DNA of 32,942 bases from Deltaproteobacteria bacterium (lineage in GTDB: Bacteria; Desulfobacterota; DSM-4660; Desulfatiglandales; B25-G16). The stretch covers positions 4,371,197-4,404,138 of the forward strand of contig CP070673.1 in NCBI GenBank assembly GCA_020351915.1. Direction: 5' to 3'. A program made the position numbers and the translations under genes. Below the pieces are notes generated by a model. It had not been told where the DNA came from, searched no databases, and saw nothing but the letters and a program-made list of their open reading frames with translations. Within the stretch, counting starts at the first letter, position 1. Each line of letters opens with the position of its first letter. Shown here one piece after another: positions 6,921-25,785 of the stretch.

Positions 6921-8699
6921 TTAAGGTACGAGCAAACCCAACGTTTTCCCATCCCTAAGGTCAACGAGCCCTTCTTCACAGATCCTCAAAAAGGGTATGG
7001 CCGGGGTTGTTAGGGTAAGAAGGGTCAGCAAGGGATCGTCAAATGGAAAGCCCAGGTCCTGCATAGTTCTCCTTACTTCTTCCACCCTTTGTGCGATCGT
7101 GGGTATTGGTATATCAGACATGATCCCAAATATCGGCAAGGGGATTTCTGCCAGGATTTGCCCTTTGACACACACAGCAACTCCTCCCTGGAAGGCATAA
7201 ATTCGGTTCACGGCACCCGCCATATCCTCACCATTTTCACCCACAACAATGATATCCGATATATCCCAGGCAGCACTGCATGCAATTGCCCCTGCCCTTA
7301 AGCGAAACCCCTTGATAAGTCCCACAAAAGTCTTCCCGGGAACATGCCTCCGGTCAATGGCAGCTACCTTCAAAATGTCTTTTCTGACATCTGATCTGAT
7401 CTCACCCTGAATAACCGGCACAGACAGTATAAGTTCTTTGGTCACCAAATCCGTAACCTGGTCTATGACCCTGACACTCACATGGGTTGCCTCTTTTTCC
7501 ACGGGTAGAGAAAAATCGGCTGGCTCAAATTTTCGTGAGAGGTGAATGCTGTTCAGGCTCTGATCGGAAAAGGTATGTCTTCTTGCAGATACCAGAAGAT
7601 CCCCTTGCTTGGCAATAATCTTTCCCTTACTGATTACGTATTCGGCCTTAATGGTTTTGAGGTCGGGAATAATGACTATGTCAGCATATTTCCCCGGCGC
7701 AATCCCACCAATTATACCATCCAAGAAAAAATACTCTGCAACATTGATAGTGGCCATCTGGATAGCATGTATTGGATCAAAACCGCAATCAATGGCCTTC
7801 CGAACAACAAATTCCATATATCCCTTCCTCAGCAAATCCTCTGGTCCTATACCATCAGTAACCAAAATGAGCCTTCTGAGGTCAACCCCGGAATCCTTGA
7901 TTCTGGATATAGAATCAAGATCGCTTCGTATGCTTCCCTCCCTTATCATGACATGCATGCCCAGTCTTAATCGCTCAAGAACCTCTTCAGCATTTATCGG
8001 CTCATGGCAGGAGGATATACCAGAGGCTATATACGCCATAAGTTTCTCACCCTTTGCCCCTGCAGAATGCCCCTCTAATCTTTTGCCACTATCAAGAGTT
8101 TCCTTGAAAATTGGAAGATATTCTTCTGGTTCCTGTATCACCGTCTGCCAATAAGACTCGCCCAGCCCTAAAATATCATCTCTGGTAAGTAGTTTTTTGA
8201 GCACCCCTTTTGGGATACCTCGTGCCCTTTTACTTATGGAAACCATTGAGGGAACGGTACCAAAGATCTTGATAGGTTGATCACTGAGAGACGCCAGAAA
8301 ATCAACTACACCTTTGTAACCTACCGTGTAGAAAGGCTCCATGATCTCAGTGATAATTGTTGTTGTGCCACCAGCCATGGCATAGCGAAGAAACTCGCTT
8401 GCACTATAGAGCCACACAAGATGGGTATGGCCGTCAATAAGCCCTGGAATAATGGTTTTCCCTGTTGCGTCAATCACGTGAGTGTGGGGGCCGATCGTAT
8501 CTTCTGGATCATTTCCTACAGAAGCAATCCACTCCCCTTTTATGGTCACCGAATAATCCTCTAACAATTCACCGGTATATACATTCAGGATAGTTGCATT
8601 GATAAGAGCCAGATCAGCCTTTTCCTTACCGAGGGTAACGTTCATTAATTCCCTTGTTTTCTCTATGCCTCCTGTTGAGAGTATCCCATGCCTTCCCAT
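6921..8699 (-). CDS. adenine deaminase-family amidohydrolase (substrate uncertain)
   Basis: Metal-dependent amidohydrolase of the adenine deaminase (Ade) family; the classical reaction is adenine to hypoxanthine plus ammonia. It is 592 residues from ATG 8699, which has AAGGAG nine bases upstream; the TTG at 8756 lacks such support. Expected ligand positions are present: DGHTH (H91, H93), LGE (E181), EGHSAG (H211), SSCHEP (H232) and VTD (D282). The C-terminal Ade domain is clear (DIIVVGENGEDMA, EIPLPIFGIMS). It departs from typical Ade where DPHEIANV is expected (here EIMEPFYTV at about 118), where LGEVMN is expected (here LGESYW), and where TDD is expected (here TDG). Two other catabolic transcription units follow, so a purine or N-heterocycle substrate fits, but adenine itself is not assured. 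Confidence 0.8.
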   Translation of the reverse strand: MGRHGILSTGGIEKTRELMNVTLGKEKADLALINATILNVYTGELLEDYSVTIKGEWIASVGNDPEDTIGPHTHVIDATGKTIIPGLIDGHTHLVWLYSASEFLRYAMAGGTTTIITEIMEPFYTVGYKGVVDFLASLSDQPIKIFGTVPSMVSISKRARGIPKGVLKKLLTRDDILGLGESYWQTVIQEPEEYLPIFKETLDSGKRLEGHSAGAKGEKLMAYIASGISSCHEPINAEEVLERLRLGMHVMIREGSIRSDLDSISRIKDSGVDLRRLILVTDGIGPEDLLRKGYMEFVVRKAIDCGFDPIHAIQMATINVAEYFFLDGIIGGIAPGKYADIVIIPDLKTIKAEYVISKGKIIAKQGDLLVSARRHTFSDQSLNSIHLSRKFEPADFSLPVEKEATHVSVRVIDQVTDLVTKELILSVPVIQGEIRSDVRKDILKVAAIDRRHVPGKTFVGLIKGFRLRAGAIACSAAWDISDIIVVGENGEDMAGAVNRIYAFQGGVAVCVKGQILAEIPLPIFGIMSDIPIPTIAQRVEEVRRTMQDLGFPFDDPLLTLLTLTTPAIPFLRICEEGLVDLRDGKTLGLLVP

Positions 8700-8837
8700 A
8701 GTAGAAATCTCCTTAACTCCTGACAAACCTCTAGCACTCAGTCCGTCTTGGCTCAACCGTCAGCACGCCTTAAGAACAACGCATTGGCTAAGATCGTTTG
8801 TTTTGGATAAGAATGGCCCACGCTATTTAAGGTCTCA

Positions 8838-10184: not shown

Positions 10185-12548
10185 TCAGTTTCCACCACTT
10201 TCCAGGGCTTCAAGTACTTTTTCTGGAGTTAAAGGCAAACTGTAAATTCTGGCACCAATTGCATCAGCTACTGCGTTGGCAATCGCCGCGATCACCGCAG
10301 CACGAGCGCACTCCCCAACCTCCTTACCACCGAATGGGCCTTTGGGCTCAAAACTGTCTGTAGGCACATGAACAAACTCCGGTGTCTCATAAACACTCGC
10401 TATCTTATAGTCGTCAAAAGAGGGGTTCATAACCCGGCCCTCCTTAGTCACAACTTCCTCAAAGAGGGCATCGCCCACTCCCATGATCGCTTGACTCAAT
10501 AACTGCCCATGAACATTTTTCGGGTTTATTGGTTGACCACAATCATCAGCTATAGTTACCTTGAGAACGTTTACCTTACCCGTATCTGGGTTCACGTTTA
10601 CCTCGGCTACCGCCACAGTGAATCCATAGGCGTTGGTAAAACGTGCCCCTCCCTTTGACAGGCTGGGGTAAAATTCCACTTCTGGCACCGGCTTAACATG
10701 CCCTTTACCAACAACCGGATCTCCATTATGGCTCTGGATGCTATGCCTTACAACGTCTGCATAGGAGACTTCTATTTCCGGAGCTCTCATGACACTAATC
10801 CGCCCGCTGCTCACTCGCAGGTTATCAACATTTTCTTCCAACATCTCGGAAGCAACTACCAATAACTGCTGTTTGGCATCAGCAGCGGCACGCCTTACAG
10901 CTTCCCCCGAACAATATACACCGGCACTGAGAAAGCCACCGATATCTGGAGGGCACAGTTCCGTATCACCAGCAACCAAAATTATATCATCTAATGTTAG
11001 CCCCAGCTCCTCAGCAGCTATCTGAGACAAAACAGTACTGCATCCTTGCCCAAACTCCGACTGACCGGAGTATAACGTGGCGGTACCATCTAAATTCAGC
11101 TTCACTATGGCAGAACTAGAAAAGGGATAGTACATAGAGCCGCTAAACATAGCCGCTAGCCCCATACCGATACCTCGATAATTGCTTCTGCCTCTGCCGC
11201 GTTTTTCTTTCCATTTGGTCGCCTTAACGGCTCTTTCGATACCAGTGGTCAAACCGCAACTGTCAAGCCTATCTCCGTTGGGCAACACTTCGCCCGTCTT
11301 TCTAACATTTTTTAATCGAAGTTCGGCCGGGTCTATTCCTAAATGCTCTGCGATCATGTCCAGCTGCTGTTCAGCGGCAAAGCTCATCTGAGGACTCCCA
11401 TGTCCCCGCTTAGGCATACAGACGGGTTTATTAGTATAGGCGCCTACCCCCTCGTGCTTCCAATTAGGGATTCTGTACAGCGGAATGCGGAAGGTGTGAG
11501 CAAGAAGCATAACCACTGGCGAACTACCGCGGTAAGCGCCAGGATCATTAATCAGCTTGACGTGCTGGGCCACAATAGTTCCGTCTTTCTTTACCCCTGT
11601 TTTTAGATCAATAATAAAGCGGTGGCTTAAGCGGCAATTGGTAAATACTTCGTGACGCGACGTTACTATCTTTACTGGCCTGCCCGTTTTTCTCGATAAA
11701 TAGGCAGCTAGGAAATCATGGGAAAACAATTCAATTTTACCTCCGAAAGAACCACCGGTGAAGCAGGTGTGGATTCTAACCTTGCTCACCGGAATTCCCA
11801 GGGTTTTTGACAACCAATACTGCTTTACCGCCAAACTCATATGGCTAATCCATACGTCCAGCTTGCCCGCATTGGAATCATAGCTGGCCGCTACCACGTG
11901 GGGCTCTATGGCTGCATGAGCTGTGGCGGGAAGAACGAATCTATCCTCCCGAACATAATCAGAGCCAGCAAACCCTTTATCGATGTCCCCATAGGCCATT
12001 GAAACGGTAGTACATATATTATTCACCGCTTTGAATGGCCTCGCAGGCTTATTCACCCCCCAGTCCTCCCAGGCGCAGGTCGTTGTAGGGACAATCTCGT
12101 CGTGCACCTTGGGAGCGCCGTCTTTCAGAGCCTCCTCGGGGTCGAAAACAGCGGGAATCGGCTCATACTCCACCTCTATACGTTCCAGCGCCTCCGCAGC
12201 GGTAATCTCATCAACAGCAGCCACGGCAGCCACCTCGTCACCTACGTAGCGCACCTTTTCGATAGCTAAGGGGTACTGATCGGCGGGATACCTTGGCGTA
12301 TCAACGAAGGCGAAGCGAATCGGTCCGATCTCTTTACCAGTAATTACGGCTTTTACTCCAGGTAAGGCCTCTGCTTTACTCGTGTCGATCTTGACGATTC
12401 TAGCATGAGGATGAGGACTTCTGAGAATTTTGCCATGTAACATATTGGCCAGCATCATGTCGGCGGCAAACTTCCCTTCACCAGTAACCTTTACCTTTCC
12501 GTCTACCCTCGGAAGGGGTTTGCCGACTACAGAATAACCTGCGATCAT
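10185..12548 (-). CDS. xanthine dehydrogenase-family molybdopterin-binding subunit
   Basis: Large catalytic subunit (787 residues) of a molybdenum hydroxylase, which inserts water-derived oxygen at a carbon of a heterocycle, aldehyde or aromatic thioester. It opens with the family signature PLPRVDGKVKVTGEGKFAAD. Further motifs are GGSFGGK (265-271), RGHGSPQ (381-387), GQSEFGQG (495-502) and the catalytic Glu746 in GGKEVGE. In bovine xanthine oxidase the FGGK motif is followed by Glu802, which binds purine; here that place is Ile272, while the partner Arg880 corresponds to Arg381. It lacks the AYxCSFR loop of CO dehydrogenase. It overlaps the iron-sulfur subunit gene by 4 bp (ATGA) and ends the medium-small-large operon. 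The class is certain; the substrate could be a purine, another heterocycle, or an aromatic CoA ester. Confidence 0.93.
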   Translation of the reverse strand: MIAGYSVVGKPLPRVDGKVKVTGEGKFAADMMLANMLHGKILRSPHPHARIVKIDTSKAEALPGVKAVITGKEIGPIRFAFVDTPRYPADQYPLAIEKVRYVGDEVAAVAAVDEITAAEALERIEVEYEPIPAVFDPEEALKDGAPKVHDEIVPTTTCAWEDWGVNKPARPFKAVNNICTTVSMAYGDIDKGFAGSDYVREDRFVLPATAHAAIEPHVVAASYDSNAGKLDVWISHMSLAVKQYWLSKTLGIPVSKVRIHTCFTGGSFGGKIELFSHDFLAAYLSRKTGRPVKIVTSRHEVFTNCRLSHRFIIDLKTGVKKDGTIVAQHVKLINDPGAYRGSSPVVMLLAHTFRIPLYRIPNWKHEGVGAYTNKPVCMPKRGHGSPQMSFAAEQQLDMIAEHLGIDPAELRLKNVRKTGEVLPNGDRLDSCGLTTGIERAVKATKWKEKRGRGRSNYRGIGMGLAAMFSGSMYYPFSSSAIVKLNLDGTATLYSGQSEFGQGCSTVLSQIAAEELGLTLDDIILVAGDTELCPPDIGGFLSAGVYCSGEAVRRAAADAKQQLLVVASEMLEENVDNLRVSSGRISVMRAPEIEVSYADVVRHSIQSHNGDPVVGKGHVKPVPEVEFYPSLSKGGARFTNAYGFTVAVAEVNVNPDTGKVNVLKVTIADDCGQPINPKNVHGQLLSQAIMGVGDALFEEVVTKEGRVMNPSFDDYKIASVYETPEFVHVPTDSFEPKGPFGGKEVGECARAAVIAAIANAVADAIGARIYSLPLTPEKVLEALESGGN

Positions 12549-13027
12549 TTTTCCTCCTTCTGGCTACGCGCTGCGGCAAGTATAGCTTCAACAATACTAG
12601 TATATCCAGTACACCGACAGAGGTTACCCGATATAGCTTCCTTTACCTCCTCTTCTGTTGGGTTCGGATTTTTGTCGAACAGAGCTTTCGCTACAAGGAT
12701 CAACCCTGGTGTACAAAAACCACACTGCAGGGCACCGTGGTCTATGAATGCCTGTTGCAGAACATGAAGATCGCCATCTTTGGCCAGACCCTCAATGGTA
12801 AGGATAAACTTGTCCTGAGCTTCCATTGCCAGGAGAAGACAGGACACAACCGGTTTACCATCCATAAGGACTGTACAGCTACCACAGTTGCCGATGGAAC
12901 AGCCGTTTTTCGTTCCGGTGAGTCCCAGGACATCCCTGAGGACCTCCAGAAGCGTCATTCTCGGTTCCACAGCCACTTCATATGATTCTCCATTTACGTT
13001 TAATGCGATAAGTTGTTTCATAGCCAT
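12545..13027 (-). CDS. xanthine dehydrogenase-family (2Fe-2S) iron-sulfur subunit
   Basis: Small electron-transfer subunit carrying two [2Fe-2S] clusters that pass electrons from the molybdenum centre to FAD. The 160-residue length is standard. The plant-ferredoxin-like cluster is bound by C43, C48, C51 and C63 (NGCSIGNCGSC). The helical C-terminal cluster is bound by C102, C105, C137 and C139 (QCGFC and NLCRC). ATG at 13027 and a second in-frame ATG two codons later are both possible; the AAGG upstream is better spaced for the second (13021). It starts 18 bp after the FAD subunit stop and overlaps the large-subunit start by 4 bp, so all three are co-translated. No twin-arginine signal is present, so the complex should be cytoplasmic. 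Confidence 0.96.
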   Translation of the reverse strand: MAMKQLIALNVNGESYEVAVEPRMTLLEVLRDVLGLTGTKNGCSIGNCGSCTVLMDGKPVVSCLLLAMEAQDKFILTIEGLAKDGDLHVLQQAFIDHGALQCGFCTPGLILVAKALFDKNPNPTEEEVKEAISGNLCRCTGYTSIVEAILAAARSQKEEK

Positions 13028-13045
13028 TACCTTTCCGAATACGGA

Positions 13046-13936
13046 CTATTTGACATTTTGCCAGGCCTCATTTACCGCTCGCTTAACCAGCACCGAGGTC
13101 ATGCGTCTCCGGTAATCAGCCCGAGACCGGGGAATGGTTTCTTCAGCAGCTACCTGAGCTGCCTGTTCTACAAGCTTTTCTTCGATTTTATTGCCCCGAA
13201 GCACCTCCTCGGCCCGCCTCGCTCTCATGGGAGTGGGAGCTACTGAAGTCAGCCCTATCTTTATATCGTCACATATCTCGCCGGAGGAATGCGCTACTAT
13301 TAAAACTGCAACTCCGACCAAAGTTTCATCAACTTCGGTTCCTTTGGGAACCCACTGCCAGGAACCCGCACTTTGCGTTGGTGGCGGTGGTACTTGGATT
13401 TCAGTAAGCAATTCGTCATCTTTAGCCACAGATTGGAAAGGGCCCTCAAAAAACTCATCGATAGGAACCACCCTTTCTCCAGGGCTGCTCACGAGCTTGA
13501 GCCTGGCCCCCAGGACAAGCAGTGCGGGAATTGTATCCTGTGACGGGCCTGCTTGGCAGATATTGCCGACCAGAGTACCCATATTTCGTACTTGTGGGGT
13601 ACCCACCTTTCTGCACGCTGTCGCCAGGACCTCGAACGTATTCTTGACAACAGGGGAACTGGCTATGGATTGAAGAGTAGCTCGGGCTCCAATCTTTAGT
13701 CCATTTTCATGGTCATACCTTATGTAGTCCAGTTCAGGAATGGCCCTAATGCTAATCAAATGGCTTGGGCTTTCATTCCTTTTCTTCATCGAAACCAATA
13801 AATCAGTGCCCCCTGCCAAGACCTTCGCATTACCCTTATTTTGAGAAAGCAGAGCACAGGCTTCCTCCAGTGTTCTGGGTGCTGAATACTCAAATCTTGG
13901 TAGAAGGAGTAGATAACCTATGTTTGATTTACCCAT
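13046..13936 (-). CDS. xanthine dehydrogenase-family FAD-binding subunit
   Basis: Medium FAD-binding subunit of the molybdenum hydroxylase, 296 residues, which receives electrons from the iron-sulfur subunit and hands them to an acceptor. It shows the FAD-binding motifs AGGTDLL (41-47) and RNMGTLVGNICQAGPSQD (117-134), and a C-terminal CO-dehydrogenase flavoprotein domain. It lacks the extra [4Fe-4S] loop cysteines that mark the 4-hydroxybenzoyl-CoA reductase beta subunit, which weakens that assignment. ATG 13936 has AGAGGG six bases upstream. It is the first gene of a three-gene operon in FAD, FeS, Mo order, the cox order. A candidate promoter with a perfect TTGACA lies about 100 bp upstream. 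Confidence 0.93.
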   Translation of the reverse strand: MGKSNIGYLLLLPRFEYSAPRTLEEACALLSQNKGNAKVLAGGTDLLVSMKKRNESPSHLISIRAIPELDYIRYDHENGLKIGARATLQSIASSPVVKNTFEVLATACRKVGTPQVRNMGTLVGNICQAGPSQDTIPALLVLGARLKLVSSPGERVVPIDEFFEGPFQSVAKDDELLTEIQVPPPPTQSAGSWQWVPKGTEVDETLVGVAVLIVAHSSGEICDDIKIGLTSVAPTPMRARRAEEVLRGNKIEEKLVEQAAQVAAEETIPRSRADYRRRMTSVLVKRAVNEAWQNVK

Positions 13937-18045: not shown

Positions 18046-18780
18046 ATGGAAAAAGATATTACTGAATTAAAGGAAATCATGACCACCTCTAATAGAGTAA
18101 CCGTGCTTACCGGGGCAGGTATCTCTGCTGAAAGCGGGGTCCCCACCTTCAGAGGCGCTGATGGCATATGGCGGAACCACCAGGTTACCGATGTCGCTAC
18201 ACCGCAAGCATTTGCTAGGGATCCGGAACTGGTGTGGGAATTCTATAACTGGAGAAGGAACCTTCTGAGTAAGGTTACCTTTAATGACGGTCACAAGGCC
18301 CTGGTAAAATTAGAAAATCATGTTCGTGACTTTACGCTCATCACCCAGAATGTTGATGGCCTCCACAGGGAAGCTGGGAGCAAGCGCTTGCTTGAGATTC
18401 ATGGTAATCTATGGGATGTCAAGTGCACCCAATGCGGCCTGCTTACCCTGGATCGGTCTCAGGATATGGGCCGACTGCCTAAATGTACCAAGTGCGAAGG
18501 ACTCCTCAGACCAAATGTTGTCTGGTTCGGCGAATCCCTCGATCCTGATATTTTAGGCAAGGCCTTCGACGCAGCCCGAAATTGTGAGGTCATGCTCATT
18601 GTTGGAACATCTGGCATTGTTCAGCCAGCAGCCTCTCTTTCTCTTCATGCCAAGCAAGGGGGGGCTGTAGTTGCTGAGATCAATCTGGAGAAAACGCCTC
18701 AATCAGGACATATGGATTTTGTCTTAACCGGTAAAGCCGGAGAGATCCTGCCAATGCTGGTCGAGGGCCTAGTCCACTGA
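18046..18780 (+). CDS. cobB: NAD-dependent protein deacylase, class III sirtuin (CobB/SIRT5-like)
   Basis: Cytoplasmic NAD-dependent lysine deacylase, 244 residues, a full sirtuin domain. Visible are LTGAGISAESGVPTFRG (21-37), QNVD (101-104), the catalytic His119 in IHGN, and a zinc site with C127/C130 and C147/C150. Tyr67 and Arg70 in YNWR form the YxxR pair which, in SIRT5 and bacterial class III enzymes, binds acidic acyl groups, so desuccinylase or demalonylase activity is predicted alongside deacetylation. ATG 18046 lacks a good ribosome binding site. An inner ATG at 18079 has AAAGGA upstream but would remove the first helix, so the longer form is kept. It is preceded by the repeat-bearing spacer and followed by a 314-bp spacer before the SAM hydrolase gene. 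Confidence 0.93.
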   Translation: MEKDITELKEIMTTSNRVTVLTGAGISAESGVPTFRGADGIWRNHQVTDVATPQAFARDPELVWEFYNWRRNLLSKVTFNDGHKALVKLENHVRDFTLITQNVDGLHREAGSKRLLEIHGNLWDVKCTQCGLLTLDRSQDMGRLPKCTKCEGLLRPNVVWFGESLDPDILGKAFDAARNCEVMLIVGTSGIVQPAASLSLHAKQGGAVVAEINLEKTPQSGHMDFVLTGKAGEILPMLVEGLVH

Positions 18781-19094: not shown

Positions 19095-19913
19095 ATGGAA
19101 AGACCTTCAGGAATTATTACCATAACCACTGACTTTGGTGAAAGGGACCCCTATGTGGCAATGATGAAGGGGGTCATCCTTTCCATTAATCCAGGTGCGC
19201 GGATAGTGGACATAACCCACCAGGTACCGGCTGGTTCAATTCGAGAGGGGGGTTCAATCATCAAGGAGACCTACCAATACTTTCCCTCGGGAACCGTCCA
19301 TCTGGCAGTGATTGATCCGGGCGTCGGCGGCAAAAGAAGGCCCATCGCTGCGCTGGCCGACAACCATTTCTTTGTCGGTCCCGATAACGGCCTCTTCTGG
19401 CCAATAATAGAAACACAGGAACACAGCGAGGTTATTCATCTTAGTGATAAGATGTACTGGATGCGGGAAATCAGCCCCACGTTTCACGGAAAAGACATCT
19501 TTGCCCCGGTTGCCTCCCATCTGTCAAAGGGAGTAGATCCCTTTCTCTTGGGTGAAAAAATCGACAATCCAACCACGATAGCTGTTCCGCTTCCCCGCAA
19601 AGAGAACAGTGATCTGGTTGGCGAGATCATACGGGCGGATCACTTCGGCAATCTCGTTACCAATATCAGCAGGGAAGAGATCAGTGAATTTCTTGCATCG
19701 AGAGGTTGTGTTATTAAGATTGGGAGTTTGGTTTTGAAGAAAATCAGCACCACCTATGGTGACGTACCAGAAGGTGAGCCGCTTGCACTGATAGGTAGTT
19801 CTAACTTACTGGAGATAGCCATTAACAGGGGTGATGCGGCACATGATCTCGGTGAGAAATGTAAGATAGGTACAAAGGTAACTATACGATTCGCAAATTC
19901 TGCAACTAATTAA
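19095..19913 (+). CDS. SAM hydrolase / S-adenosyl-L-methionine hydroxide adenosyltransferase (DUF62)
   Basis: Member of the DUF62 family, related to fluorinase and chlorinase, which hydrolyses S-adenosylmethionine to adenosine and methionine. At 272 residues it is typical. Motifs in order are ITTDFGERDPYVAMMKG (10-26), AVIDPGVGG (71-79), VGPDNGLFW (94-102), SPTFHGKDIFAPVA and ADHFGNLVTN. The last matches the hydroxide-using branch rather than halogenases, which carry specific substitutions and an extra loop near the halide site. ATG 19095 follows AAGG by nine bases. It converges on the nucleotide-sugar dehydrogenase gene across a 158-bp spacer with an inverted repeat. The physiological purpose of SAM hydrolysis by this family is unsettled. 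Confidence 0.93.
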   Translation: MERPSGIITITTDFGERDPYVAMMKGVILSINPGARIVDITHQVPAGSIREGGSIIKETYQYFPSGTVHLAVIDPGVGGKRRPIAALADNHFFVGPDNGLFWPIIETQEHSEVIHLSDKMYWMREISPTFHGKDIFAPVASHLSKGVDPFLLGEKIDNPTTIAVPLPRKENSDLVGEIIRADHFGNLVTNISREEISEFLASRGCVIKIGSLVLKKISTTYGDVPEGEPLALIGSSNLLEIAINRGDAAHDLGEKCKIGTKVTIRFANSATN

Positions 19914-21969: not shown

Positions 21970-22659
21970 TTATTCAACTTGCCCTATTTTCCGTATCAGC
22001 TCTTTGGTGACCTCTTCAACGCTCCCTCTTCCATCCACTTCAACAACAGCTGGAATACCGTCCCTCTTTGACAAGTCCTTGAAGTATTCTACTGCAGCGC
22101 GAGTGCCGCTTTTAGTATCGTAGTAAATACCATGTCTCTGATCAATTGCCGTCTCGTCCTGGTCATCATCCCGTTTCCTCAATTCCCCACCACATACCCT
22201 GCACCTATCGCTATCTGGTTTGATGGCCTCAATATTGATGTTGTTCGGATGATTGTTGTCGTTCACACAGAGCCTCCGGCCCATGATCCTCTTTTTTGCA
22301 ATTTCGCGCTCCAGGATGATTTCAATGAGTACATCTGCCCTGATACCCTCCTTGGCCAGGGCCTCATTCAGCCTGACAGCCTGGTTAAGATTTCGTGGAA
22401 ACCCATCCAAAAGCCAGCCTGACGCGCAATCTTCCTCTTTAAGCCGATTAAGAACCATGGGAATGGTTATATCGTCAGGCACCAGTTCTCCCTTATCTAT
22501 GTAAACCTTGGCCTTGTTCCCGAGTTCCGTTCCCTTTGATATATTCTCCCTAAATATGGCTCCTGTTTCAATATGGGGTACGCCATATTTTTCTTTTATG
22601 ATTGCTCCCTGAGTTCCCTTTCCGCTCCCGTTCGGTCCAAAAAAAAGCACGTTCATCAT
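21970..22659 (-). CDS. adk: adenylate kinase
   Basis: Cytoplasmic enzyme converting ATP plus AMP to two ADP. It is 229 residues with P-loop GPNGSGKGTQ (8-17), AMP-binding segment ETGAIFRENI (31-40), DGFPRN (85-90) and a long LID starting GRRLC. The LID metal site appears as C131, D134, C153 and C156, so one of the four cysteines of zinc-type adenylate kinases is replaced by Asp; the LID is also stretched by about eight residues. The usual GD in the AMP site reads GA (33-34). Its ATG follows directly on the thioesterase TAA with a GGGGGGAG ribosome binding site inside that gene, so the two are translationally coupled. A second, ribosomal-operon adk elsewhere in the genome is possible. Confidence 0.92.
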   Translation of the reverse strand: MMNVLFFGPNGSGKGTQGAIIKEKYGVPHIETGAIFRENISKGTELGNKAKVYIDKGELVPDDITIPMVLNRLKEEDCASGWLLDGFPRNLNQAVRLNEALAKEGIRADVLIEIILEREIAKKRIMGRRLCVNDNNHPNNINIEAIKPDSDRCRVCGGELRKRDDDQDETAIDQRHGIYYDTKSGTRAAVEYFKDLSKRDGIPAVVEVDGRGSVEEVTKELIRKIGQVE

Positions 22660-23058
22660 TTAGTCTCCCCCCAATATACTAAGCAGAAAATCAGGAAACC
22701 GCACTATCCGGTCATTTCTATCTAAACAGGCATGGATTGTATAGCCCTGGACGATTATGTCCTCCTCTCTGCATATGGTATAATCAAACCTGCTGCTAGC
22801 CCTTTTTACGAAACCAATCACAGTCTCAATGGTTAACAGATCGTCATACCGAGCGGGTCTAGTGTACTTCACGTATGCTTCGGTTGTGGGTAAAAAGAAT
22901 CCTTTGTCCTCAACTTCCCTGTATGTTAAGCCCTGCTCCCGTAACAACTCTGTTCTCCCGATCTCAAAGAGCCTGAGGTAGTTTGAGTAGTAAACTATGG
23001 CCATTGAGTCGCAGTCACCATAGATAACCCTGTAATAGGTGACATTCTTCTTTTTCAT
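22660..23058 (-). CDS. acyl-CoA thioesterase, YbgC/4-hydroxybenzoyl-CoA thioesterase family
   Basis: Small hot-dog-fold thioesterase of 132 residues that hydrolyses an acyl-CoA or aroyl-CoA thioester. The family motif appears as VIYGDCDSMAIVYYSNYLRLFE (11-32), with Asp17 at the position of the catalytic aspartate and the Y-x-x-Y-L-R-x-F-E helix behind it. The second half contains the usual KYTRPARYDDLLTIET strand. ATG 23058 is preceded by AAGGGAG five bases upstream. It abuts adk with no spacer and lies 97 bp after the phosphoglycerate-mutase-like gene. YbgC homologues often pair with tol-pal genes, which are not seen here. The natural substrate is open. Confidence 0.9.
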   Translation of the reverse strand: MKKKNVTYYRVIYGDCDSMAIVYYSNYLRLFEIGRTELLREQGLTYREVEDKGFFLPTTEAYVKYTRPARYDDLLTIETVIGFVKRASSRFDYTICREEDIIVQGYTIHACLDRNDRIVRFPDFLLSILGGD

Positions 23059-23155
23059 TCAGCTCCCTTTTTATAAGTCTTGCCAATTCAGCCTTTAACG
23101 CTTACTGGGTCTCGATAACCATGACTCGGATCAGGCAGTGGGAAACACGGAAGCA

Positions 23156-24379
23156 TCACGCTTCAAAAAAGAACGCTTTTACCAACTCATGACCGCTCTC
23201 AAACATAAGTCCGCTCTCCTTTGCCGATGGTTCTGTAAATGGACGGCCTGCCGGTACTGACGCAATCTCATTTTTACTCGCCCAAGCGAAAGGAGTCGGC
23301 TCACCGGTATGGGTCCTTTTTGTAATGGGTGTTAGATGGTCACTAACGACCATAATCCGGTAATCCTCAAAAACCTTTAACCCCTCAACAATAATCCCCA
23401 CCACCTTCTGATCAAAATTTTCAATGGCCTGTATCTTCTCTTCGTAGTCACCATGGTGGCTCGCCTCGTCGGGTGCTTCCACATGAACAAAGATGAAATC
23501 AAGGCTCGCAAGTCCTTTCAGTGCCGCTTCGGCCTTGCCTTGGTAGTTGGTATTCAGGTAACCAGTTGCCCCCTTTACATGGATGGGGACAAACCCAGCA
23601 TAAACACCTATGCCCTTCAGTAGATCCACAGCGGAGATGATACCACCGCTCAGACTGTATCTGTCGCTAAATAGGGGTAGCTTTGGTGCCTTTCCCTGTC
23701 CCCATAACCAGATGGAGTTGGCCTCCCCTAAGCCCGCTCGCCTTCGCTCCACGTTGATCGGGTGCTCTTTCAGAATCTCCCATGAACGCCGAATCAGTTT
23801 AGGCACAGGGTTGTTTGAGGAGTTATTTAGGTAAGGGGCCATGCATTGTCCAAGGACATTGTGGGGCGGAATGGTGACGGCATTCTCAGGGCCATTTTCC
23901 CATAAAAGGAGATGTCGGTAGGCCACACCTGGGTAGAGCTCAATCCCGGGAAGTTGGAACTCCTTCTTTAAATCCTCGACGATCTGTACCGCCTCTTCTG
24001 TGGAAATATCTCCGGCACTATGGCTCATCATAACAATTTCACCATCCCCTCGCCAATTCAGGCTGACCAGATTCATTCTAAAAGCCACCTGGTTTGGTCT
24101 CAAGGCGATGCCCATGCTGGCAGCCTCCAGAGGAGCGCGTCCGGTATGGTATTTTCGGGGATCGTATCCCAAAAGAGAGAGATTGGCTATATCGCTGCCT
24201 GGTTCCATACCCTCTGGTATGGTTCTTACTAGGCCGACCCCGCAGGCGGCTATACGAGCCATATGGGGTGTCTCTGCTACCTCTAGAGGTGTTTTCCCAC
24301 CGAGTTCTTTCAGGGGGTAATCGGCCATCCCGTCACCAACCAGAAGGACATATTTTTTTGCTTTATAATCTCTCGCCAT
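23156..24379 (-). CDS. ApgM-family phosphoglycerate mutase-like protein, proposed homoserine kinase
   Basis: Alkaline-phosphatase-superfamily protein of 407 residues, of the archaeal-type cofactor-independent phosphoglycerate mutase family. Metal-binding LLVGDGMADYP (about 12-22) opens the protein; the nucleophile is Ser62 in PGSDIANLSLLGYDP; C-terminal metal ligands lie in HVEAPDEASHHGD and VVSDHLTP. ATG 24379 is chosen because AAGGGA lies seven bases upstream; the ATG at 24397 lacks a site. A subfamily of these proteins encoded beside threonine-pathway genes has been annotated as a proposed homoserine kinase replacing ThrB. Here homoserine dehydrogenase lies immediately upstream in the same direction (92 bp), so homoserine phosphorylation is the better guess, with phosphoglycerate mutase as alternative. 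Confidence 0.85.
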   Translation of the reverse strand: MARDYKAKKYVLLVGDGMADYPLKELGGKTPLEVAETPHMARIAACGVGLVRTIPEGMEPGSDIANLSLLGYDPRKYHTGRAPLEAASMGIALRPNQVAFRMNLVSLNWRGDGEIVMMSHSAGDISTEEAVQIVEDLKKEFQLPGIELYPGVAYRHLLLWENGPENAVTIPPHNVLGQCMAPYLNNSSNNPVPKLIRRSWEILKEHPINVERRRAGLGEANSIWLWGQGKAPKLPLFSDRYSLSGGIISAVDLLKGIGVYAGFVPIHVKGATGYLNTNYQGKAEAALKGLASLDFIFVHVEAPDEASHHGDYEEKIQAIENFDQKVVGIIVEGLKVFEDYRIMVVSDHLTPITKRTHTGEPTPFAWASKNEIASVPAGRPFTEPSAKESGLMFESGHELVKAFFFEA

Positions 24380-24471
24380 AAGGATATCCCTTGTCATTTG
24401 TCACTAGCCATTTGTCAGTTAGAACTCGATTTCTTCAATCGGCAATTGGCAATCGAAATTTGAAAATTCCT

Positions 24472-25785
24472 TCAGATACCTGTCTTTCTTTCCACCCTAA
24501 AGAGGACCGTCTTTTCAGTTACTACGTCCAGCTTATCGATGATCTCAAGGGATTTTCTGACATCCCTCTCCTTTGCCTCGTGGGTGAGCATTACTACAGG
24601 CACAGACCCATGTGCCTCTCTCGCTTTTTGAATAACGGAGGCGATGCTGATATTGTTGGCACCCAGAACTCCAGATATCTTAGAGAGTACCCCAGGTCTG
24701 TCTACTGCTGAAAATCGAAAATAATAATCAGTACTTACCTGATCCATAGGTCTCAGAGATAGCTCTGTAGCGGGAGAGCGCGCAAAAGAGAGCGGTGAAA
24801 CCCGCCGTGAAATGCCTTTTACTTGATTTCTGGCTATATCCATTATATCAGACACAACGGCACTGCCTGTGGGTCTCTTACCGGCACCAAGCCCGTAGAA
24901 GAGGGTAGGCCCGACAAAATCACCTTCGATATACACGGCATTATAAGCCTCATTAACGTTTGCCAGGATATGATCCAGGGGAACAAAGGCTGGGTGCAAT
25001 CTGGCCTCGATCTGTCCATCCACCTTTCTTGCAATTGCCAATAATTTCACGCAATAGCCAAACTCACCGGCGAACCTTATATCCTCAGGAGAGATCTTGT
25101 CGATCCCTTCCTTATAAACATCCTCATATCTACAAGGGTAGCCAAAGACAAGAGAGACCATTATAGTCAGTTTATGGGCAGCATCGCTTCCATCGATATC
25201 CAGACTGGGATCTGCTTCTGCATAGCCCAGCCTCTGTGCTAGTGACAGTGCCTCATCAAAGGAAAGTCCTTCCTCCGCCATCCTGGTCAGAATATAGTTT
25301 GACGTTCCATTCAAAATAGCCAGTACTGCCTCAATCTGGTTTGCAGCCAGGCCCTCTCTCAAGGCCCTAATGATAGGGATACCTCCGGCTACGCTCGCCT
25401 CAAAGGCAATGTCAACCCCGCACCGTTCGGCTGCCTCAAACAATTGCTTGCCATATTGGGCAATGAGCGCCTTATTCGCCGTAACCACGTGTTTACCTCT
25501 CTCCATGGCCATTGAGATAAATTCCATGGCCTGATCACAGCCCCCAATCAGTTCAACAACTACATCTATCTCCGGATCATCGATTATCTCCATTGCATCA
25601 GCAGTAAGCAAGGCGGGATCTACCTCTACTCCGCGATCAGAATGAATATCCAGATCTGCGATCTTCTTTAATACAATCGCCGCACCAACCCTATCCTCTA
25701 TCAATTCCTGGTTATGAACCAGGACCTCCACCATACCAGCCCCCACTGTTCCGAAGCCAATCAAGCCGACCTTTACCTGAGGCAT
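24472..25785 (-). CDS. hom: homoserine dehydrogenase with C-terminal ACT domain
   Basis: NAD(P)-dependent reduction of aspartate semialdehyde to homoserine, the branch point to threonine and methionine. It is 437 residues, standard for the ACT-bearing form. The Rossmann motif GLIGFGTVGAG is at 7-17. The catalytic domain shows ASVAGGIPIIRAL, AILNGTSNYIL and GYAEADPSLDIDGSDAAHKL. The last 80 residues form an ACT domain (FRFSAVDRPGVLSKISGVLG), which usually gives feedback inhibition by threonine. ATG 25785 has GGGGAG nine bases upstream. It starts 14 bp after the aminotransferase gene and precedes the ApgM-like gene, making a compact threonine-pathway cluster. Confidence 0.96.
   Translation of the reverse strand: MPQVKVGLIGFGTVGAGMVEVLVHNQELIEDRVGAAIVLKKIADLDIHSDRGVEVDPALLTADAMEIIDDPEIDVVVELIGGCDQAMEFISMAMERGKHVVTANKALIAQYGKQLFEAAERCGVDIAFEASVAGGIPIIRALREGLAANQIEAVLAILNGTSNYILTRMAEEGLSFDEALSLAQRLGYAEADPSLDIDGSDAAHKLTIMVSLVFGYPCRYEDVYKEGIDKISPEDIRFAGEFGYCVKLLAIARKVDGQIEARLHPAFVPLDHILANVNEAYNAVYIEGDFVGPTLFYGLGAGKRPTGSAVVSDIMDIARNQVKGISRRVSPLSFARSPATELSLRPMDQVSTDYYFRFSAVDRPGVLSKISGVLGANNISIASVIQKAREAHGSVPVVMLTHEAKERDVRKSLEIIDKLDVVTEKTVLFRVERKTGI

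Follow-up and report, generated by a model that had tools for sequence, protein, structure and literature searches.

We analyzed a 32,942-nucleotide stretch of DNA (hereafter the window) from a Deltaproteobacteria bacterium (GTDB lineage Bacteria; Desulfobacterota; DSM-4660; Desulfatiglandales; B25-G16), located at positions 4,371,197 to 4,404,138 of contig CP070673.1 in GenBank assembly GCA_020351915.1, in which a gene for an ApgM-family protein follows hom, the gene for homoserine dehydrogenase (Table 1). An earlier note, made from the sequence alone, had placed an ApgM-type gene directly 3' of hom and an aminotransferase gene 5' of hom, correctly in coordinates and description, and had taken the ApgM-type gene for a non-orthologous homoserine kinase. 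The transcription order is aminotransferase, hom, apgM, thioesterase-like and adenylate-kinase-family gene, with 14 bp separating the aminotransferase gene from hom and 74 bp separating hom from apgM. The hom product exceeds the NF004976 cut-off (548.6 bits vs 205), and the aminotransferase falls under the cut-off of all 25 listed NCBIfam models, the closest being NF006033, 'alanine transaminase' (628.3 vs 647), with LL-diaminopimelate aminotransferase models also near and likewise not reached.

Table 1. Features of the hom-apgM cluster, with positions in the window (aa, amino acids).
Feature	Position	Strand	Basis
ApgM-family protein, 413 aa, TIGR02535 'proposed homoserine kinase'	23156..24397	-	profile, Pfam, alignment, predicted fold
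hom, homoserine dehydrogenase, C-terminal ACT domain, 437 aa	24472..25785	-	profile and Pfam
class I/II aminotransferase, 394 aa	25800..26984	-	nearest models below cut-off
exchanged segment, no similarity to congeners (thrH there)	23035..24470	-	flank comparison with G011 and G013
4HBT thioesterase-like protein, 132 aa; bounds the slot on the right	22660..23058	-	retained in relatives with ThrH as well as in those with ApgM
adenylate kinase family protein, 229 aa; part of the conserved cluster, downstream	21970..22659	-	

The protein encoded by apgM belongs to TIGR02535 (489.6 bits vs a cut-off of 446.3, covering positions 2-395 of the 397 in the profile). A Pfam scan of it returned only PF10143, PF01676 and PF01663 and no GHMP fold or TIGR00191 assignment; the HAD fold and TIGR02137, which mark ThrH, were likewise not found in it. 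Its predicted structure (predicted local distance difference test score 91.8, predicted template modelling score 0.87) is closest to the archaeal ApgM phosphoglycerate mutase 2zkt (E 5e-33; template modelling score 0.78/0.84 to 2zkt_B). When the two are aligned, all catalytic residues are present, namely S68, which we take from knowledge of the superfamily to be the nucleophile, and D22, D310, H314, D353, H354 and H363, which on the same assumption are the metal ligands.

The position behind hom, which we call the slot, is occupied by a different gene in the closest relatives. ThrH fills the slot in all four congeners and in other members of the family. An open reading frame of about 200 amino acids separates hom from the thioesterase gene in G011, G012, G013, G004, G017 and both copies in G007, and G014 has the same frame after hom, with no thioesterase match found behind it. 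All eight slot frames tested, from seven genomes, exceed the cut-offs of NF010109 and TIGR02137, which describe the bifunctional phosphoserine phosphatase/homoserine phosphotransferase ThrH; in G005 a ThrH piece of 39 amino acids directly follows hom at a contig end. Within the family, the slot thus contains ApgM in five genomes (G000, the genome of the window; G001, G006, G009 and G016) and ThrH in eight (G004, G005, G007, G011-G014 and G017), and no family genome has both (13 readable slots; Fisher p 0.0008). The entries for G005 and G006 rest on partial genes at contig ends, and five slots could not be read, because no hom was found (G002, G008, G010) or hom lies at a contig edge (G003, G015).

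The exchange is precise to the gene. The window is 95.6% identical in DNA to G013 and 94.4% identical to G011 up to position 24471, one base past the hom stop codon; from 24470 to 23035 there is no match at all in either genome, and at 23034, 24 bases inside the thioesterase gene, identity resumes at 95.7% (G013) and 94.0% (G011). The corresponding values for G012 are 93.5% before the slot and 85.6% after it, and G014 matches on the hom side only. The thioesterase gene of G012 (L079:5479-5865) is 76% identical to that of the window, with neighbours at 91-96%, a possible second recombination edge. An assembly artefact was considered, because the assembly of the window is itself concatenated (see below), and is ruled out by the absence of N from the window and by G009 and G016, which show the same hom-apgM-thioesterase order in their own assemblies. 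Foreign contamination is not favoured either, given that the ApgM protein falls within the family clade (97/93) and that hom is 97% identical to that of a congener.

Two unrelated proteins replace one another at a single site and are hardly ever found in one genome, which is most simply explained if they do the same job; their occupation of the same spot in close relatives is strong indirect evidence that ApgM and ThrH both phosphorylate homoserine. A tree of 23 hom proteins requires at least four changes in what the slot holds, three of them forced for the ThrH group by starred branches, and the genus, with ApgM in the window and ThrH in the other four genomes, forms one clade (100/100). The four family ApgM compared form one clade (97/93), and so do the eight family ThrH (100/99), so that a single entry of each gene into the family would suffice; repeated gain of ThrH within the family was rejected on this ground. 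We read the repeated slot changes either as recombination at this position among family members or as long polymorphism. One family member, G007, carries two diverged clusters of aminotransferase, hom, thrH, thioesterase and adk (L083, L084), with one aminotransferase partial, in addition to a GHMP thrB beside acetolactate-synthase-like genes (L093).

To place the exchange in a wider setting, we surveyed the class (85 genomes), the phylum (237 genomes) and 80 named TIGR02535 loci from a genome scan. In the class, TIGR02535 is over its cut-off in 55 genomes and matches at E 0.001 or better in 68, many of the weak matches being gpmI-like, since their frame is about 550 amino acids long; thrC exceeds its cut-off in 69 genomes, and GHMP thrB is over its cut-off in two and missing from 83. 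ThrH occurs in eight class genomes (seven over the cut-off and one contig-end piece), all of them the family members described above, and in no other of the 85. Each of the 30 best class TIGR02535 loci, that of the window included, has hom immediately upstream in the same orientation, so the hom-apgM order is not due to chance. Similarly, hom and/or thrC accompany the gene on the same strand in 59 of the 80 named loci, in 42 of them within 400 bp, and one locus has a GHMP thrB. An aminotransferase gene upstream of hom is also present in several class loci and named loci. Phylum-wide, where the TIGR02535 and ThrH searches listed every genome with a match, TIGR02535 is present in 198 genomes (192 over the cut-off), thrC exceeds its cut-off in 220 and ThrH occurs in 12. 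A single one of these 12 also has TIGR02535, as against about ten expected (p 7e-9, relatedness not corrected). The ThrH gene directly follows hom in eight of the 12, none of which has TIGR02535, and no hom lies within 1.5 kb of the other four. These four hom-less genes (L202 of G174, L199, L201 and L203) form a separate group (98/96), which, together with the occurrence of TIGR02535 in one of their genomes, suggests that this group may serve only as phosphoserine phosphatase.

The TIGR02535 proteins differ from other members of the ApgM family at a small set of positions. We compared 108 TIGR02535-type proteins (that of the window, 28 from the class and 79 from named loci) with 13 other ApgM-family proteins (11 class paralogues, 2zkt and 3kd8); the comparison leaves out two of the 30 class loci, namely L040, which is the window's own copy, and L041, which has a stop in its extended frame, and, by row count, one of the 80 named loci. 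The metal ligands and the serine nucleophile are kept across the TIGR02535-type proteins, with S68 in 107 of 108. Position 307 is Glu in 108/108 and Lys in all 13 others, and W232 is likewise invariant (108/108), with R or Q in the comparison set. Y160 (107/108) corresponds to N or H in most of the others, H162 (105/108) mostly to A or G, and P177 (102/108) to D in 13/13. In addition, the archaeal motif DRRAGR reads SHSAGD in the window protein. The archaeal residues DRRAGR, K302 and R226 are likely substrate contacts, and none of these Arg/Lys positions is kept in the window protein, which has SHSAGD, E307 and W232 in their place. The change from Lys to Glu at E307, three residues from a metal ligand, suggests, as far as sequence comparison can indicate, recognition of an amino group.

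We also searched the assembly of the window for thrB, thrC, thrH and other phosphoglycerate mutase genes. The assembly is listed as a single contig of 5.09 Mb; ten sampled stretches of 20 kb (200 kb in all) contain 26 spacers of 100 N, about one every 8 kb, or some 660 gaps by extrapolation. It is therefore a concatenation of several hundred pieces, and absence calls in it are weak. The earlier note had reported no GHMP-type thrB in the window; this was borne out, and in the whole assembly no GHMP thrB was recognised either, with no search aimed at TIGR00938 or at homoserine kinases of the DvMF_0971 type. Of the two GHMP matches in the assembly, one is ispE and the other, which resembles a sugar or mevalonate kinase, reaches 19.6 bits on TIGR00191 (cut-off 168). 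A search for the metalloenzyme superfamily returned, besides apgM itself, only a sulfatase-like protein and no gpmI, and ThrH had no match at E 1e-10. Among five matches to the histidine phosphatase superfamily, one, located 8 kb before the window, is a clear gpmA (TIGR01258, 396 bits vs 81.7). The genome check proposed in the note for thrB, thrC, gpmI and gpmA thus returned gpmA, no GHMP thrB, no gpmI and, in this gapped assembly, no thrC over the cut-off; a standard thrB combined with the lack of any other phosphoglycerate mutase, which the note had named as the case that would overturn its proposal, is not what the genome contains. About 12 kb after the window, the same genome has an odd fusion (L004:859-2982), a frame of 707 amino acids with arylsulfatase-like and CysD/CysH-like (3'-phosphoadenosine 5'-phosphosulfate reductase/sulfate adenylyltransferase) domains.

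Collectively, the family assignment, the complete set of catalytic residues, the recurrent hom-apgM order, the replacement by ThrH in place and the mutually exclusive occurrence of the two genes indicate that apgM probably encodes the enzyme making O-phospho-L-homoserine for threonine synthesis, a metal-dependent phosphotransferase of the alkaline phosphatase superfamily that replaces ThrB. The threonine requirement of BT2402 mutants in Bacteroides (PMC7311316) and the presence of gpmA elsewhere in the genome also speak for this reading. There is good support for placing the gene at the homoserine-phosphorylation step, and to this extent the non-orthologous homoserine kinase of the earlier note holds, by way of the ThrH exchange, a stronger argument than the note had; the word kinase is doubtful, because the metal/serine catalytic set and that exchange both suggest phosphate transfer from a donor other than ATP, and 'phosphotransferase' is the likelier description. 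In the mechanism we propose, two metal ions held by D22, D310, H314, D353, H354 and H363 would activate S68; a small phosphorylated metabolite would pass its phosphate to S68 and the spent donor would depart; and homoserine, delivered by the neighbouring Hom, would accept the phosphate from S68 on its hydroxyl, with residues such as E307 possibly recognising the amino acid. Candidate donors would be phosphoenolpyruvate, an idea of the TIGRFAM curators related in PMC7311316, and phosphoserine, in parallel to ThrH. The more specific proposal that TIGR02535 proteins are phosphoserine:homoserine phosphotransferases convergent with ThrH is tentative and, in our estimate, less likely than not: phosphoserine would charge S68, serine would leave and homoserine would enter a pocket read by E307, both substrates fitting the same pocket because homoserine has the same amino-acid head. 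If phosphoserine were the donor, the synthesis of serine would be tied to that of threonine in most of the phylum.

Several observations weigh against a role in making O-phosphohomoserine. The window protein also passes NF003242, 'cofactor-independent phosphoglycerate mutase' (499.3 vs 426 bits), and thus bears two NCBIfam names, with NF003242 appearing to cover the same group as TIGR02535. Neither hom nor thrC is nearby in 21 of the 80 named loci. Both thrB and TIGR02535 are present in G045, ThrH and thrB are both present in G007, and G174 is the only one of the 237 phylum genomes with both ThrH and TIGR02535. In Sporotomaculum syntrophicum (L185, 1489-6197), hom, a GHMP thrB (281.5 bits), an aspartokinase-like frame and a TIGR02535 protein (520 bits) share one orientation in a single run of genes. 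In the only direct test described in the literature consulted, the Bacteroides homologue BT2402 failed to rescue an Escherichia coli thrB mutant, according to a personal communication in PMC7311316; a missing donor would explain this failure if phosphoserine were the donor. Finally, the best thrC match in the gapped assembly of the window scores 59 bits against a cut-off of 167, and the two best matches of that search read as dehydratase- and ammonia-lyase-like. As all four congeners have thrC over the cut-off and the assembly is gapped, its absence is uninformative, and we do not accept a real loss of thrC.

Some of these observations would fit a protein that takes part in threonine synthesis without acting on homoserine, in an accessory or regulatory capacity or by removing or recycling phosphorylated intermediates, while another kinase carries out the phosphorylation. 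Mutants in BT2402 require threonine, yet the protein did not rescue the E. coli mutant (PMC7311316), and thrB and TIGR02535 stand together in the L185 operon. Such a role is improbable, given the exchange in both directions with ThrH, for which the formation of O-phosphohomoserine is established, and the 83 of 85 class genomes in which no GHMP thrB is seen. We regard as similarly improbable that the protein is an ordinary cofactor-independent phosphoglycerate mutase standing beside hom by chance. The NF003242 name, the fold shared with the archaeal enzymes 2zkt and 3kd8 and the retention of all metal and nucleophile residues speak for a mutase; the cofactor-dependent phosphoglycerate mutase gpmA elsewhere in the genome, the in situ replacement by ThrH in congeners and the changes at the likely substrate positions rule it out as the principal explanation. 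A role as L-threonine kinase in the synthesis of corrinoids has been put forward for Dehre_1608 (CbiU), a TIGR02535 protein of a corrinoid operon (PMC4285132), and is conceivable here since threonine and homoserine are isomers that one pocket may take; it is most improbable at a hom locus where the replacement in relatives is ThrH and no threonine kinase.

Elsewhere in the window, a gene for a S-adenosylmethionine hydroxide adenosyltransferase family protein (19095-19910) adjoins a Sir2 family gene (18046-18780), and positions 10185-13936 hold a molybdenum hydroxylase operon with three subunits of the xanthine dehydrogenase type, with an adenine deaminase-like gene at 6921-8756.

Threonine synthesis in bacteria without ThrB is an open gap: in the GapMind study, 29 of 148 prototrophs had no confident ThrB, and 15 of these had TIGR02535 (PMC7311316). 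The hypothesis of a homoserine kinase in this family is itself old, dating to TIGR02535 and taken up as ThrB2 in PMC9026213, and the family, the context argument and the distribution complementary to thrB have already been published (PMC7311316; PMC9026213). What is new here is ThrH in the ApgM slot of close relatives, of which we found no earlier account in the literature searched, which largely excludes subscription papers. A gene-precise exchange between flanks that are 94-96% identical is almost a complementation experiment carried out by nature; it indicates both the reaction and the donors to consider, provides closely matched gene pairs and argues against the phosphoglycerate mutase name that NCBIfam still gives.

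Among known systems, ThrH of Pseudomonas aeruginosa, a phosphoserine:homoserine phosphotransferase/phosphoserine phosphatase, resembles the window protein in its slot after hom, its proposed product and a route through a phospho-enzyme, but is an unrelated HAD-type protein of about 200 amino acids that uses Asp chemistry. The GHMP homoserine kinase ThrB would share the product O-phosphohomoserine, but has a different fold, is ATP-dependent and was not found in the assembly of the window. The archaeal ApgM phosphoglycerate mutases (2zkt, 3kd8 and 3idd) have the same fold and metal/serine catalytic set, from which the window protein departs with E307 for K302, W232 for R226, H162 for A150 and P177 for D167. 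ThrH itself is described as forming O-phosphohomoserine from phosphoserine, with no ATP-dependent kinase activity (PMC1079889 on Singh 2004), and a similar HAD gene of Geobacter, flanked on both sides by threonine genes, has been proposed to be ThrH (PMC2700814). The shikimate-kinase-like homoserine kinase DvMF_0971 of Desulfovibrio vulgaris (PMC5764234) is another non-orthologous ThrB from the former Deltaproteobacteria, of a different family, and Dehre_1608, although of the TIGR02535 family, differs in its corrinoid operon and in L-threonine as its proposed substrate (PMC4285132). The nearest counterpart is TIGR02535/ThrB2 (BT2402) of Bacteroides thetaiotaomicron, described as a member of the same family linked to hom and thrC in the absence of a GHMP thrB (PMC9026213; PMC7311316), whereas the window has a cluster of aminotransferase, hom, apgM, thioesterase and adk without thrC, in which close relatives carry ThrH instead.

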